Shown: positions 36,060-41,154 of the stretch, piece by piece | How positions within the stretch are numbered: the first letter of the stretch is position 1 | How the letters are laid out: every line of letters starts with the position of its first letter | Source of the DNA: Acidobacteriota bacterium | Lineage (GTDB): Bacteria > Acidobacteriota > Terriglobia > Terriglobales > Acidobacteriaceae | Assembly (NCBI GenBank): GCA_021806005.1 | Contig: JAJZDM010000021.1 | Coordinates: forward strand, 1 to 41,154 | Direction: 5' to 3' | Length of the DNA: 41,154 bases | The notes under the pieces: model-generated | Database searches by the model: none | Told to the model about the DNA's origin: nothing | The model's input: only the letters and a program-made list of their open reading frames with translations | Program-made: the position numbers and the translations under genes

Positions 36060-39000
36060 ATGACTACCAATACCAAAGTGCCCTCTTTAGTAATCATGAG
36101 TAACCTCTGGAAGGAAGAGTCCCGCAAGCGTCCTGGGTTCAGGGACGGCCGCATCGTGCGGTCGCGCCTGGTTATGGCGTCGCCCCTGGCGCTGCTTTTG
36201 GCCTTTGCCCCCGCCCGGGCACAATCCAGCTACGCGCAGGTCAGCTGTCCTGCGGGTGAGACCACGACCATCAGCGGCACCGTCTATGATCCAGCCGGAA
36301 TCAACCCCCTCCCCAACATTCTCGTCTACGTTCCAGGGGCCGCCGTCCAACCCTTCACCGACGGAGTGAACACCTCGGATCCAGTGCAGGACAGCTACAC
36401 CAGCCTGGTGAGCGGCTCGCCGATGGTACAAACCACGACCGGAATCAACGGCTCCTTCACCCTCTCCGACGTACCGGCCGGAACCAACGTTCCGCTGGTG
36501 ATTCAATCCGGCCGCTGGCGGCGTCAGTTGGTCATCGCCCAGGTCGCCGAATGCGTCAGCACAGCCCTCTACTCCGCGCCGGCCAGCCCACCCTCAACGA
36601 CCACCGTCGGGGCCACGGAGACCGAACCGTCCGGTCTCAGCTCCAGCAACGTAACTCAGGGTGGAAGCTCGTCACTGACCGACTACGGCGAGCAAACCAC
36701 CGTTCGCTTTGCGCGCAATCAGGAGGAGGGCGACATCCCGCACATCGCCCTGGTGACCGGCGCGGTAGACGCTCTCGAGTGCACCCTGCGCAAGGCGGGC
36801 ATCAGCGACTCCGAGTTCACGGACCTGAGCGTAGGCATCAACAGCACCAGCTCCGATCCCTCCGCCGGACCAACCGGGCGCGTCAATCTCTACAACGGCA
36901 TCGGCAACTCGGGCGTCTCAGCGCCAAGCTACTACACGTCTTCGCAAGCGGTCACCCCGACGCACACAGAGAGTGTTCTGATGGGCTCTGGAAGCGAAAC
37001 CTCGCTTGCCACTACCGCCGACCTCTTCGCGAACACCTACAACGTACTCATGCTGCCCTGTCAGGGTGATGACAACAACTACACGAACCTTCAGGGAGAG
37101 ACCAACGCCGCCTGGTTCATCAACTCGGGCGGGCGGATCTTCGCCACACACCATAGCGCCTTCTACATCGACAACCCGAACGGCGAGACTTCCAGCCAGG
37201 ACAGCGTGGTCTATGACACCGCTCTGGCTGCCGACAACTGGAATAACAGCAACTCCGGCCCGCTTCAAGACACCCCAAGCATCTCCGCGACCATCAATCA
37301 GGGCTTTCCTGACGGCGCTACCCTGGCCGCCTGGCTCCAGGACCTGGGAGCCACCACCACGCAGGGATCGCTTACCCTCGACTACGACTGGAACAACCAG
37401 TCCGGTGTGGACTCGGCATATAAAACCCTCTCCTGGGCAACGGACACCGACAACGGCGACGTCATGCAACTCTCGTTCTACGCCCCGGTTTGCTCGGACG
37501 CCGGTTGTTCCCAGTTCGGCCAGGTGATGTACAACGAGTACCACGTCGACAACGCCTCGGAGAACGCCTCGACGGTCTTTCCGAATGAGTGTGTTGATGA
37601 CTCCGGTTCGAGCCGCGCCAAGAGCAGCGCGATGAGCCCGCAGGAGATGATGCTCGAGTACAGCCTCTTCAACATGATGAGCTTCGCTGTGCCCACGCTG
37701 ACCCCGCCCACCCTCAGCATCACGGCCAGCCCTTCGACCACCTTCACCGACGGCGAGAGCAGCGGATCGCTCACCTTCTCGGTGACCAACCCCAACAACA
37801 CCTCGATCACCACCTACCCCACGGTGACGCTGAACATCTCGCTGCCCAGCGGCATGAGCGCGGTTTCCATGATCGACCCCAACGGAGGCTGGAGCTGCAG
37901 TGTGGCGACGCTGGGCTGCACCCTGATGCACCCGATCGACGCGGGAGCGACGGACTCCGTAACGGTCGCCGTGACGGTCTCAGCCGATGCGCCGGCCACC
38001 AACACCGCCGTCGTCTCCGCCACGGCCTCCAGCAGCGCCTTCTCCAGCAGCGCCACGCAGAATCTCATCATCAGCACCGTCGCGGCTCCGCCCAACACGG
38101 TCACTGGTCCCACGATGACCACCCTCCCCAACACCCCGGTCGGCTCAACCAACTCCGGCACGGTCACCTTCGGCGTCAGCAGCGGAACCACCATCAGTAG
38201 CGTCGCAGTCGTCACCGAGGGGCTTCCCAACCTGGACTTTACCCTGGCCAGCGGCAACACCTGCGTCAGCTCCAGCTCATATTCTTCAGCCATCAACTGC
38301 ACGGTCACCGTCAACTTTTCTCCCAGGGCTCCCGGCCTGCGCCTGGGCGCGGTAGAGATCTTCGGCAGCAGCGGCGCGCTGCTGGACACGGCGTACATCA
38401 GTGGCATCGGCATGGGCGCGGAGGCTGCGCTGGAGCCAGGCACGCTCTCCACTCTTCTGAGCAGCGGGCTGAGCGCCCCCGGCGACCTCACCGCCGATGT
38501 GCTCGGCAACCTCTACATTGCCTCCAGCGGAAACAGCCAGATCGTCGAACTGGCGCAGGGCGTCAACACAGCAACCCTCTTCGCCGGAGGAGGCTCCATC
38601 TGCTCGAACAGCAGTGACAGCATCGGCGATGGCTGCTCGCCTACCCACGCCACGCTCAACTCCCCCCAGGGCGTCACCCTGGATGGCGCCGGCAACCTCT
38701 ACATCGCCGACCAGGGGGACGACGTGCTGCGCGAAGTTTCAGCGGTCACCGGCATCATCTCCACCGTGGCGGGCACACCAGGCGCCTCCAGCAGCTCCGG
38801 GGATGGCGGTCCGGCGACCGGCGCAACCTTCGAGAAGCTGGACGCGGTCGCGGTGGATGGATCAGGCAACCTCTATGCTGCGGACGCCGGCGCTTGCGTG
38901 GTTCGTGAGATCACCGCGGCGGACAAGGAGATCAACACCATCGCCGGGACCGGCGTCTGCGGATACACCGCCACCAGCGGTGTCGCCACAAGCATGCGCA

Positions 39001-41154
39001 TCGGCGCACCCTCTGCCCTGGCGCTGGACTCCAGCGGCAACCTCTATATCACCGATAGCAGCAACCTTGTGGTCTGGAAGCTCACGCTCTCCTCCGGCGC
39101 CCTGACGGTGACCGCCGGAACCCCCGGCCAGGCTGCGTCCAGCACCGGCGACGGCGGGCCTGCGACCAGCGCCACCTTCACCCTGCCCGCCGGCGTCGCC
39201 GTCGACGCCGCCGGGGACCTCTATATCCTGGACAACAACGCAGCCGCAACCCGCCTGCGCATGGTCTCACCCTCCACCGGCATCATCACCACCATCGCCG
39301 GTGGCGGCAACCAGAGTGGCAGCGGCATCCCAGCTACCCAGGCCGCACTCGCGCCCGGCGGCGGCGTGGCCCTCGACGCCGCCGGAGATCTCTACCTCAC
39401 CGCAACCAGCGCAGGCAGTCTCGAAGAGATTACTTCGACGGCGGCAACCATGCCCTTCCCCACACCCACTCCCGTCGGCTCCACCGACACCACCGACGGC
39501 GTTGACGGCTTTGAAGCCGTCACCCTGACCAACATCGGCAACCAGGACCTGACCGCCGTGACGCCGGGAATCGCCGCCAGCGACAGCACGGACTTCGTCC
39601 AGCAGACCGGAGCGAGCTCCGCCTGCGCGCCCACCTTCTCACTCGGCTTCGGTCGGGGCTGCTCGCTCGGCTATGAGTTTGCGCCACAGACGTTCGGCTC
39701 CCTCAGCAACACCGTCACCCTGACAGATAACTCCTATCAGGCAGCGTTGAATCAGCAGACGGCCGGTCAGCAGACGGCCCTGTTCAGCGGCACCTCCAGC
39801 GGAAACAGCACCGCCACCACGGTCAACTCCGCGCAGACTGTCTATAACCCGACCGCGCAATCCGTGACACTCTCGGCGGCGGTAACGGATACCACCAACA
39901 GCGGCACAACGGTCAGCAGTGGAACCATCACCTTCACGGTGTACAGCGGAACCACCCTCATCGGCTCGGCCGTGGGGAACATCGCCGTGAACAACGGCAC
40001 GGCCAGCGCAAACTACAGCCTTCCTGCCGGCACAGCGGCGGGAACCTACACGCTGACTGCGGCCTACAGCGGGGCTACGGACTTCACCGCAAGCACTTCA
40101 ACCGGTGGAACGCTGACCGTCAACCCGGCGTCCGGCACACTCGCCATCACCGGCCCAGCATCGGGCTTCTACGGTAGTTCGGCCACCGTCACCTTCTCCG
40201 GAAGCTACTCTGGCACACCAACGCTGAAGGGCTCAACGGCCGGCGTCTGCACGGTGAACGGCGCCACGGTGACCTACACCGGTGTGGGAACCTGCACGCT
40301 CACAGCCAGCACCTCTGCGGGCAACTACGGGGCCGTCACCAGCTCGCCGTACAGCATCAGCGTGAGCGCTGCGACGCCAACGCTCACCTTGTCCCCCGCC
40401 AACCCCGCATCCATTAACTACGGATCGTCCACCACACTGTCGGTGATCGTGACCTATCCCGGAGGCTCCCCGCCAACCGGCGTCGTAACCCTGAGCGCCG
40501 GAGGAATCTCCGCGTCTGCGACCTGTAGCGGCGCATCGGGAACCTCCATGACCTGCACCGCCTCGGTTCCCACATCGACCCTGGCGGCGTCGACCACCCC
40601 CTACACGGTGAGCGCCTCCATTGCGGCTGCGGGCAACTATGGAGCGGCCACTTCGGCCAACAGCAGTCTCACCGTGAACCAGGCCACCGCGACCGTGACC
40701 CTCGGCAGCTCCACGCAGACCTACACGGGCGCCCCCATCTCCGCCACAGCAACCACCAGCCCCGGCAGTCTGCCCGTCACCCTCACCTACACCGGCACCA
40801 GCGGCACCAGCTACCCTGCTTCATCCACGCCACCCACCAACGCCGGAACCTACACCATCACCGCAACCGTAAACAGCACCAACTACACCGGCACGGCCAC
40901 CAGCGTGATGACCATCGCCAAGGCGACCCCTGCAATCCTCTGGACCACTCCATCTCCCATCGCCTACGGCACCGCTTTGACCGGCGCCCAGCTTGACGCC
41001 TCCGCCACCTTCAACAACGCCGCCGTTGCCGGAACCTTCCTCTACTCCCCGGCTGCGGGAGCCGTGCTCTCCACCGGCCAGCAGACACTCAACGTCAGCT
41101 TTACCCCCGCCAACACCACAGACTTCAACCCCGCCACTGCTTCCACCACCCTCA
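36060..41154 (+). CDS. Giant modular exoprotein: CarboxypepD-like, uncharacterised GATase-like, DUF11-like, NHL, Ig/MBG repeats (cut by window end)
   Basis: An open frame of 1698 codons runs off the window. The start is taken as ATG 36060; ATG 36096 and 36174 are alternatives and none has a clear ribosome-binding site. Residues 1-54 form a signal peptide (MASPLALLLAFAPARA). Then: a carboxypeptidase-regulatory-like domain (ISGTVYDPAGINPLPN); an uncharacterised module (~215-500) starting EEGDIPHIALVTGAVDALEC with VLMLPCQGDD (329-338) and GGRIFATHHSAF; a DUF11-like domain (~544-672); an ASH-like domain to ~790; at least five NHL repeats (~805-1125, repeated GNLYIADxGxxxxR); another ASH-like domain; and, from ~1255, Ig-like and MBG-like repeats (AGTYTLTAAYSG, YTGAPISATA). 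Function unknown; export and surface display or secretion are inferred. Confidence 0.85.
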   Translation, partial: MTTNTKVPSLVIMSNLWKEESRKRPGFRDGRIVRSRLVMASPLALLLAFAPARAQSSYAQVSCPAGETTTISGTVYDPAGINPLPNILVYVPGAAVQPFTDGVNTSDPVQDSYTSLVSGSPMVQTTTGINGSFTLSDVPAGTNVPLVIQSGRWRRQLVIAQVAECVSTALYSAPASPPSTTTVGATETEPSGLSSSNVTQGGSSSLTDYGEQTTVRFARNQEEGDIPHIALVTGAVDALECTLRKAGISDSEFTDLSVGINSTSSDPSAGPTGRVNLYNGIGNSGVSAPSYYTSSQAVTPTHTESVLMGSGSETSLATTADLFANTYNVLMLPCQGDDNNYTNLQGETNAAWFINSGGRIFATHHSAFYIDNPNGETSSQDSVVYDTALAADNWNNSNSGPLQDTPSISATINQGFPDGATLAAWLQDLGATTTQGSLTLDYDWNNQSGVDSAYKTLSWATDTDNGDVMQLSFYAPVCSDAGCSQFGQVMYNEYHVDNASENASTVFPNECVDDSGSSRAKSSAMSPQEMMLEYSLFNMMSFAVPTLTPPTLSITASPSTTFTDGESSGSLTFSVTNPNNTSITTYPTVTLNISLPSGMSAVSMIDPNGGWSCSVATLGCTLMHPIDAGATDSVTVAVTVSADAPATNTAVVSATASSSAFSSSATQNLIISTVAAPPNTVTGPTMTTLPNTPVGSTNSGTVTFGVSSGTTISSVAVVTEGLPNLDFTLASGNTCVSSSSYSSAINCTVTVNFSPRAPGLRLGAVEIFGSSGALLDTAYISGIGMGAEAALEPGTLSTLLSSGLSAPGDLTADVLGNLYIASSGNSQIVELAQGVNTATLFAGGGSICSNSSDSIGDGCSPTHATLNSPQGVTLDGAGNLYIADQGDDVLREVSAVTGIISTVAGTPGASSSSGDGGPATGATFEKLDAVAVDGSGNLYAADAGACVVREITAADKEINTIAGTGVCGYTATSGVATSMRIGAPSALALDSSGNLYITDSSNLVVWKLTLSSGALTVTAGTPGQAASSTGDGGPATSATFTLPAGVAVDAAGDLYILDNNAAATRLRMVSPSTGIITTIAGGGNQSGSGIPATQAALAPGGGVALDAAGDLYLTATSAGSLEEITSTAATMPFPTPTPVGSTDTTDGVDGFEAVTLTNIGNQDLTAVTPGIAASDSTDFVQQTGASSACAPTFSLGFGRGCSLGYEFAPQTFGSLSNTVTLTDNSYQAALNQQTAGQQTALFSGTSSGNSTATTVNSAQTVYNPTAQSVTLSAAVTDTTNSGTTVSSGTITFTVYSGTTLIGSAVGNIAVNNGTASANYSLPAGTAAGTYTLTAAYSGATDFTASTSTGGTLTVNPASGTLAITGPASGFYGSSATVTFSGSYSGTPTLKGSTAGVCTVNGATVTYTGVGTCTLTASTSAGNYGAVTSSPYSISVSAATPTLTLSPANPASINYGSSTTLSVIVTYPGGSPPTGVVTLSAGGISASATCSGASGTSMTCTASVPTSTLAASTTPYTVSASIAAAGNYGAATSANSSLTVNQATATVTLGSSTQTYTGAPISATATTSPGSLPVTLTYTGTSGTSYPASSTPPTNAGTYTITATVNSTNYTGTATSVMTIAKATPAILWTTPSPIAYGTALTGAQLDASATFNNAAVAGTFLYSPAAGAVLSTGQQTLNVSFTPANTTDFNPATASTTL

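Follow-up and report, generated by a model that had tools for sequence, protein, structure and literature searches.

To our knowledge, the heads of the very large surface proteins of acidobacteria, which are abundant in soil, have been little studied, and the question raised by the locus described here is what such a head is and whether it holds a ligand or acts on one. The window, that is, the whole stretch of DNA that was analysed (41,154 nucleotides), contains an open reading frame for a protein of this kind on the forward strand (36060..41153, +), which leaves the contig (G000:C195) at its end, is thus cut after 1698 codons, so that the protein has at least 1698 residues, and has an uncertain start codon; a stretch judged by eye to resemble a signal peptide (MASPLALLLAFAPARAQ) begins at an internal ATG at 36174 (+). 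The original prediction had set apart a module at 36698-37560 within this frame. Those bounds enclose the core of the module but end too early, leaving out the last helix (residues 319-333 of the structure model, 527-541 of the protein) and the conserved Cys511, and alignment with relatives together with the model places the domain at 36684..37700 (+), residues 209-547, so that it extends to about 37700. The module is a maintained coding domain under purifying selection, because its dN/dS lies at 0.16-0.20 (0.156 against L002, 0.202 against L004 and 0.191 against L003, the three close relatives); the flanks gave values of 0.097 before the module and 0.256 after it in the comparison with L002.

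Conservation was counted over 35 non-redundant homologues, which remained from 38 after removal of three near-duplicates. All five motifs quoted at the outset were found (EGDIPHIALVTG at residues 223-234, ECTLRKAGISDSEF at 240-253, GRVNLYNG at 273-280, YNVLMLPCQGDD at 327-338 and INSGGRIFATHHSAF at 354-368), and residue 334 is Cys and residues 364 and 365 are His, as had been claimed. The proposal that these residues belong to a conserved core holds for Cys334 (37059..37061, +), which directly follows the third core strand of the model and is Cys in 35/35, and for His364 (37149..37151, +; 34/35), but not for His365, whose column contains Y, F, W, H, L or G. Asp237, Glu240 and Cys241 (36768..36782, +), which lie past strand 1 in the loop and the beginning of the helix, are likewise invariant in all 35 homologues. 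Alignments A1, A3 and A5 show the same invariance for His495 (37542..37544, +; in GQVMYNEYH, past the last core strand) and for Cys511 (37590..37592, +; ahead of the last helix). One relative, L016, departs from the 35-member set at the QCGRV Cys, His495 and Cys511, the C-terminal part of its match having been lost to the score threshold, and it has all three residues in alignments A1 and A3. Such conservation is beyond chance because the domain is matched in 13 of 61 relatives' genomes, the dN/dS values are as low as 0.156-0.202, and both Cys241 and Cys334 occur in 35/35. In its majority form, which is not strict in all members, the family motif reads TGxxDxxEC...LPC[QE]G...GGRVxxxH...GRVxxNEYHV; the window copy has AxY where a YxW motif follows His364 in the family. 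Tyr327, Trp394, Trp425 and Tyr494 are invariant in A5 and would be candidates for the exposed, sugar-stacking aromatics of glycan-binding heads of the SGBP/CBM type. In the clade of the window (37491-37508, residues 478-483), the QCGRV Cys is replaced by Phe and new Cys residues appear at 478 and 483 a few residues upstream, and these changes, seen in the sequences, suggest a rewired disulfide.

Direct searches with the window copy were silent as to its family. It matched no Pfam, NCBIfam or PHROGs model at its cut-off, and a Pfam scan of its domain gave no family up to E 10, so that it stands below the curated cut-off of ThuA (PF06283); PDB sequence searches with the domain returned nothing useful. 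Low-scoring rows for CobD (E 0.17-0.19), abscisic acid receptors and flavodoxins were treated as chance. Pfam ThuA was reported for two of 29 members, with a best E of 0.0022. The domain is nevertheless remotely homologous to ThuA, because the profile-profile score is 36.6, profiles match weakly in both directions, and the fold agrees, with the ThuA-like structure 4pxy in first place. The score was obtained by hhalign from 35 members against 25 ThuA sequences, while the reversed comparison gave 16.4 and 200 column shuffles gave a maximum of 20.8. Profile A5 of the family brought 12 of the 25 ThuA proteins under the HMMER inclusion threshold (top score 13.3 bits; the highest among 1000 shuffled sequences was 6.4 bits), and the ThuA profile did so for 16 of the 35 members, to which the window copy, a weak match at E 0.31, does not belong; the E-values of both reciprocal tests refer to tiny databases of 25 and 35 sequences. 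The same profile retrieved a true ThuA protein, not a member of the family, from genome G232 at E 2.8e-4 (Pfam ThuA E 9.8e-57), and this was the only one that it picked up at E 0.001 in 396 genomes of the phylum. ThuA is common in the class, where 34 of 61 genomes have a match over the cut-off, and a PF06283 search of the window's own genome gave no match. The first profile, A1, had included a DUF11 insertion, and 12 of the 20 genomes that it matched in the phylum had no match outside the DUF11 columns and their surroundings; the profile was therefore rebuilt without the insertion-bearing rows (A4, A5). An hhalign comparison of the family with four GATases of its own genome gave no useful match, but ThuA failed there too, and the comparison hence has no power.

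The structure model leads to the same superfamily. An AlphaFold2 model of the domain from 13 sequences reached pTM 0.75 and a mean pLDDT of 64.3, which is moderate confidence; a second one, built for L022 from 14 sequences, was of low quality (pLDDT 52.6, pTM 0.55) and was set aside. Foldseek matched the model to class-I-GATase-like domains, namely those of CTP synthase, GH42 enzymes, STM3548, the ThuA-like 4jqs and HisH, and among the 50 matches listed the TM-scores were low (query-normalised, at most 0.38), and only one match had E below 0.001. With VIA-align 2, ThuA-like 4pxy came out on top (Z 14.4, rmsd 3.6, 213 aligned), the levan SGBP 8aa2_G gave Z 11.6 (rmsd 3.4, 210 aligned), and Z was at least 5 for 373 of 1000 chains. 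The guess that the module has a class-I-amidotransferase-like or ThuA-like fold thus holds, because the profile-profile score, the two-way profile matches and the structural match to 4pxy all support it.

What the domain shares with ThuA, for which a role in trehalose and 3-keto-sugar use is known, is not only the fold, for which 4pxy/4jqs and 1t0b rank among the best structural matches, but also the order YDxxxF...GGxxxxxH...GRVxY...H, with one His at the elbow and, probably, a second one past the last core strand. The position taken by the His of GGGFAGIH in ThuA is, in class I amidotransferases, the elbow of the Cys nucleophile. In the hhalign register to the ThuA protein L082, YDVLMLPCQG is aligned with YRAVIFLNTTGD and GGRVYASH with GGGFAGIH, and His364, as the equivalent of the ThuA GGGFxGIH His, is therefore at the nucleophile position, while Cys334 ends the preceding strand; the elbow is placed by way of this ThuA register. 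His495 is probably the counterpart of the His of ThuA GRVFYTALGH, although in hhalign the His of GRVLFNEYH is one residue out of register with the ThuA last-core-strand motif (GRVFY..LGH). The family differs from ThuA in its own strand-1 motif TGxxDxxEC, in the invariant Cys241 and Cys334, and in its place on a surface stalk: no ThuA His motif of the HDS or HAS type follows strand 1, and all 35 homologues have the Gly, Asp, Glu and Cys of TGxxDxxEC. In one relative, L081, the elbow position equivalent to His364 carries a natural His-to-Asp change (TSDFGF), a variant that would be useful in functional tests.

In the model, Asp237, Glu240, Cys241, Cys334, His495 and the near-invariant His364 come after core strands, and from this we infer a putative pocket where the parallel strands end C-terminally. 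Among invariant polar residues, five of eight lie in loops that follow core strands, compared with 17 of the 100 polar positions considered (p=0.003), and at a conservation threshold of 93% the enrichment drops to 6/17 (p=0.039); it is descriptive, because the loops were picked after the model had been seen.

What such a pocket might do can be considered as follows. The reading that we prefer, at a probability of roughly one half, sees the domain as a binding head that sits outermost on a stalk anchored by its C-terminus. A divergent ThuA-like domain, of the class I glutamine amidotransferase-like fold, would stand near the N-terminus of the exported protein and, owing to that location, at the outer tip of the stalk; a lipo-invert anchor at the C-terminus would probably tether the Ig/propeller stalk to the cell, and the pocket would hold a ligand and keep it close to the cell. 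Our best guess for the ligand would be a soil glycan, perhaps sugars, and the domain would presumably work without catalysis. Among the points that weaken the binding-head reading are the AxY of the window copy in place of YxW and the fact that an active or metal site is a better match than a sugar platform of aromatics for the charged, Cys and His residues that are invariant.

The likeness to an active site leads to the possibility, which we consider real but on the unlikely side, of a surface-displayed enzyme, a hydrolase or lyase of the ThuA clan whose substrates would be sugars or small molecules outside the cell and whose rebuilt site would consist of Asp237, Glu240, Cys241, Cys334, His364 and His495. 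Asp237, Glu240, Cys241 and Cys334 in 35/35 and His364 in 34/35, the likely ThuA counterparts of both conserved histidines, and the enrichment of invariant polar residues after core strands all fit an enzyme, whereas the loss of both the ThuA His motif after strand 1 and the ATDT stretch after GIH, the lack of conserved neighbour genes in 15 loci, and the Asp of L081 at the His364 position do not. The fuller version, in which a ThuA-clan enzyme with its rebuilt Cys/His/acid site sits at the stalk tip, in a polarity opposite to that of the glycan-binding lipoproteins of Bacteroidota, and processes extracellular compounds, is a shade more doubtful still. The two cysteines might instead be read as a structural disulfide, Cys241-Cys334, with the conserved face as a metal or folding core and the domain mainly a scaffold or adhesion unit. 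The protein is exported and both cysteines occur in 35/35, and the exchange of the QCGRV Cys for Phe together with new Cys 478 and 483 in the window clade is what swapped disulfides would give; we regard this as improbable, however, as it leaves the invariant Asp, Glu and His of the same loops unexplained. Least probable by far, and hardly to be expected, is an ordinary class I glutamine amidotransferase domain with a cysteine nucleophile. The superfamily fold is the same and many GATases are among the fold matches, but the elbow residue is His in 34/35 homologues, Asp in 1/35 and never Cys, and the idea of Cys334 as the nucleophile is not supported, since Cys334 ends the strand before the elbow and His364 occupies the elbow itself.

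The preferred reading of a binding head has precedents, which also means that the expectation that a ligand-binding unit on a secreted stalk would be new was overstated: two reports describe binding heads of ThuA-like fold that are borne by surface or secreted proteins (PMC7618045, PMC7229062). According to the former, the levan SGBP BT1761 (PDB 8aa2 chain G) carries a ThuA-like C-terminal domain on Ig domains and binds levan via W297/W359 (PMC7618045). It shares with the window protein a ThuA-like fold and Ig domains at the cell surface (Z 11.6 over 210 residues), but it has an N-terminal lipid anchor and a C-terminal head, the reverse of the order in the window protein. At the loci of the window family, no family of neighbouring genes recurs. 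Agd3 carries a GATase/ThuA-like domain that binds galactosaminogalactan and founded CBM87, and this domain resembles the present one in having a fold of this kind without the Cys-His-Glu triad, used in Agd3 to bind a polysaccharide (PMC7229062); it differs in being joined to a deacetylase and in having a face of conserved aromatics, not of Cys, His and acid residues. Domains of PelA and of a dimethylformamidase are also likened to ThuA-like proteins (PMC12022489, PMC7686228). The SGBP/CBM-type combination of a ThuA-like head and a cell-surface Ig-type stalk is present here, with the anchoring deduced from relatives. Already known, therefore, are the fold and, as an idea, a head of ThuA type borne by a surface protein. 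The libraries that were searched do not cover the sequence family, its motif or its placement on a lipo-invert stalk, and a literature search limited to open-licence papers listed none that deals with this family of acidobacteria.

The modules around the domain support display on a repeat-rich surface protein, as had been proposed, since Pfam propeller and Ig repeats are present in the window and the lipo-invert anchor in relatives. Ahead of the domain lies a CarboxypepD_reg-like N-terminal domain (TTTISGTVYDPAG...GRWRRQ; 36270..36554, +; residues ~71-165), a sub-threshold Pfam match whose extent was set by eye (E 0.048 over residues 71-101 in the window; two homologues gave E 0.0028 and E 0.003), and the motif [GS][RK]W[RA] precedes the ThuA-like domain in 34/35 homologues. 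A DUF11-like Ig domain adjoins it downstream (37701..38054, +; profile match 37707-38048, E 4.4e-11), Pfam DUF11 itself being absent from the Pfam matches listed for the window protein. NHL/teneurin-type propeller repeats follow at residues ~818-1122 (38511..39425, +; PF25021 E 1.7e-18, PF01436 E 1.2e-11), their far end set by a sub-threshold NCBIfam match, and then Ig-like stalk repeats (39852..40928, +; Pfam Big_3_5 at residues 1265-1355, MBG_3 at 1544-1623). Across the family, DUF11-like, choice-of-anchor D, NHL/propeller and Ig-like units occur downstream of the ThuA-like domain in differing mixes, and in the 15 loci compared no gene family besides the domain's own was common to four or more. 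In six relatives (L011-L016), a DUF11-like unit is inserted within the ThuA-like domain immediately ahead of the last core strand. A homologous unit stands after the domain in the window and in L029, and a stalk module has thus apparently moved into or out of the head; in the tree, from which L016 was left out, the five insertion rows form one branch with a fork support of 96/89.

The far end of the stalk is seen in relatives. The NCBIfam putative C-terminal anchoring domain lipo-invert (NF058595) was above the cut-off in five of seven relatives tested (L023, L025, L010, L008 and L002, the last with its tail scanned alone, a whole-protein scan having given none), and it was below the cut-off in L077 and L075, although both align with the others. 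A tail pattern was found in 22 of 23 closed frames (for example L022:229-483, -); it runs from a hydrophobic stretch through an Arg cluster and a second hydrophobic stretch to GC[SG] and then a beta segment, the end of which resembles TATDGxLTHSATYxLTV. Since the tested relatives mostly end in a lipo-invert anchor, the domain probably forms the tip of a stalk that is anchored at its C-terminus, and we infer that the window protein, truncated by the contig end, would be anchored to the cell in the same way. One such acidobacterial head can now be placed as ThuA-related and on a stalk that is probably anchored, with the six residues named for the rebuilt site as test targets. If a polymer is bound or processed, the protein would be an inverted-build counterpart of the surface glycan-binding proteins of Bacteroidota and would offer a handle on soil-carbon retention by acidobacteria; if the domain is an enzyme, an uncharacterised acidobacterial family would work on extracellular compounds at arm's length.

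The spread of the family was counted with the window's own genome, which has a single copy of the domain, included throughout. Domain matches occurred in 13 of 61 genomes searched as relatives, every one of the same genus, in 44 of 398 genomes of the window's family, partly as fragments, in 13 of 399 of the class, all within that family, and in 8 of 396 of the phylum after the true ThuA protein of G232 had been dropped from the nine genomes matched by profile A5, with G210 as the sole member outside the window's family. This patchy distribution may point to loss or transfer. Plasmids, phages and viral contigs that were searched contained no relative of the domain, two stray matches having E 2 and 9. 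A single-sequence scan across phyla, which reaches close relatives only and was the one genome search to go beyond the phylum, gave three loci, all acidobacterial, and the closest named relative in it was a Granulicella sp. MAG (L002), with 84% identity in the best segment and a stop-to-stop frame of 2258 residues.
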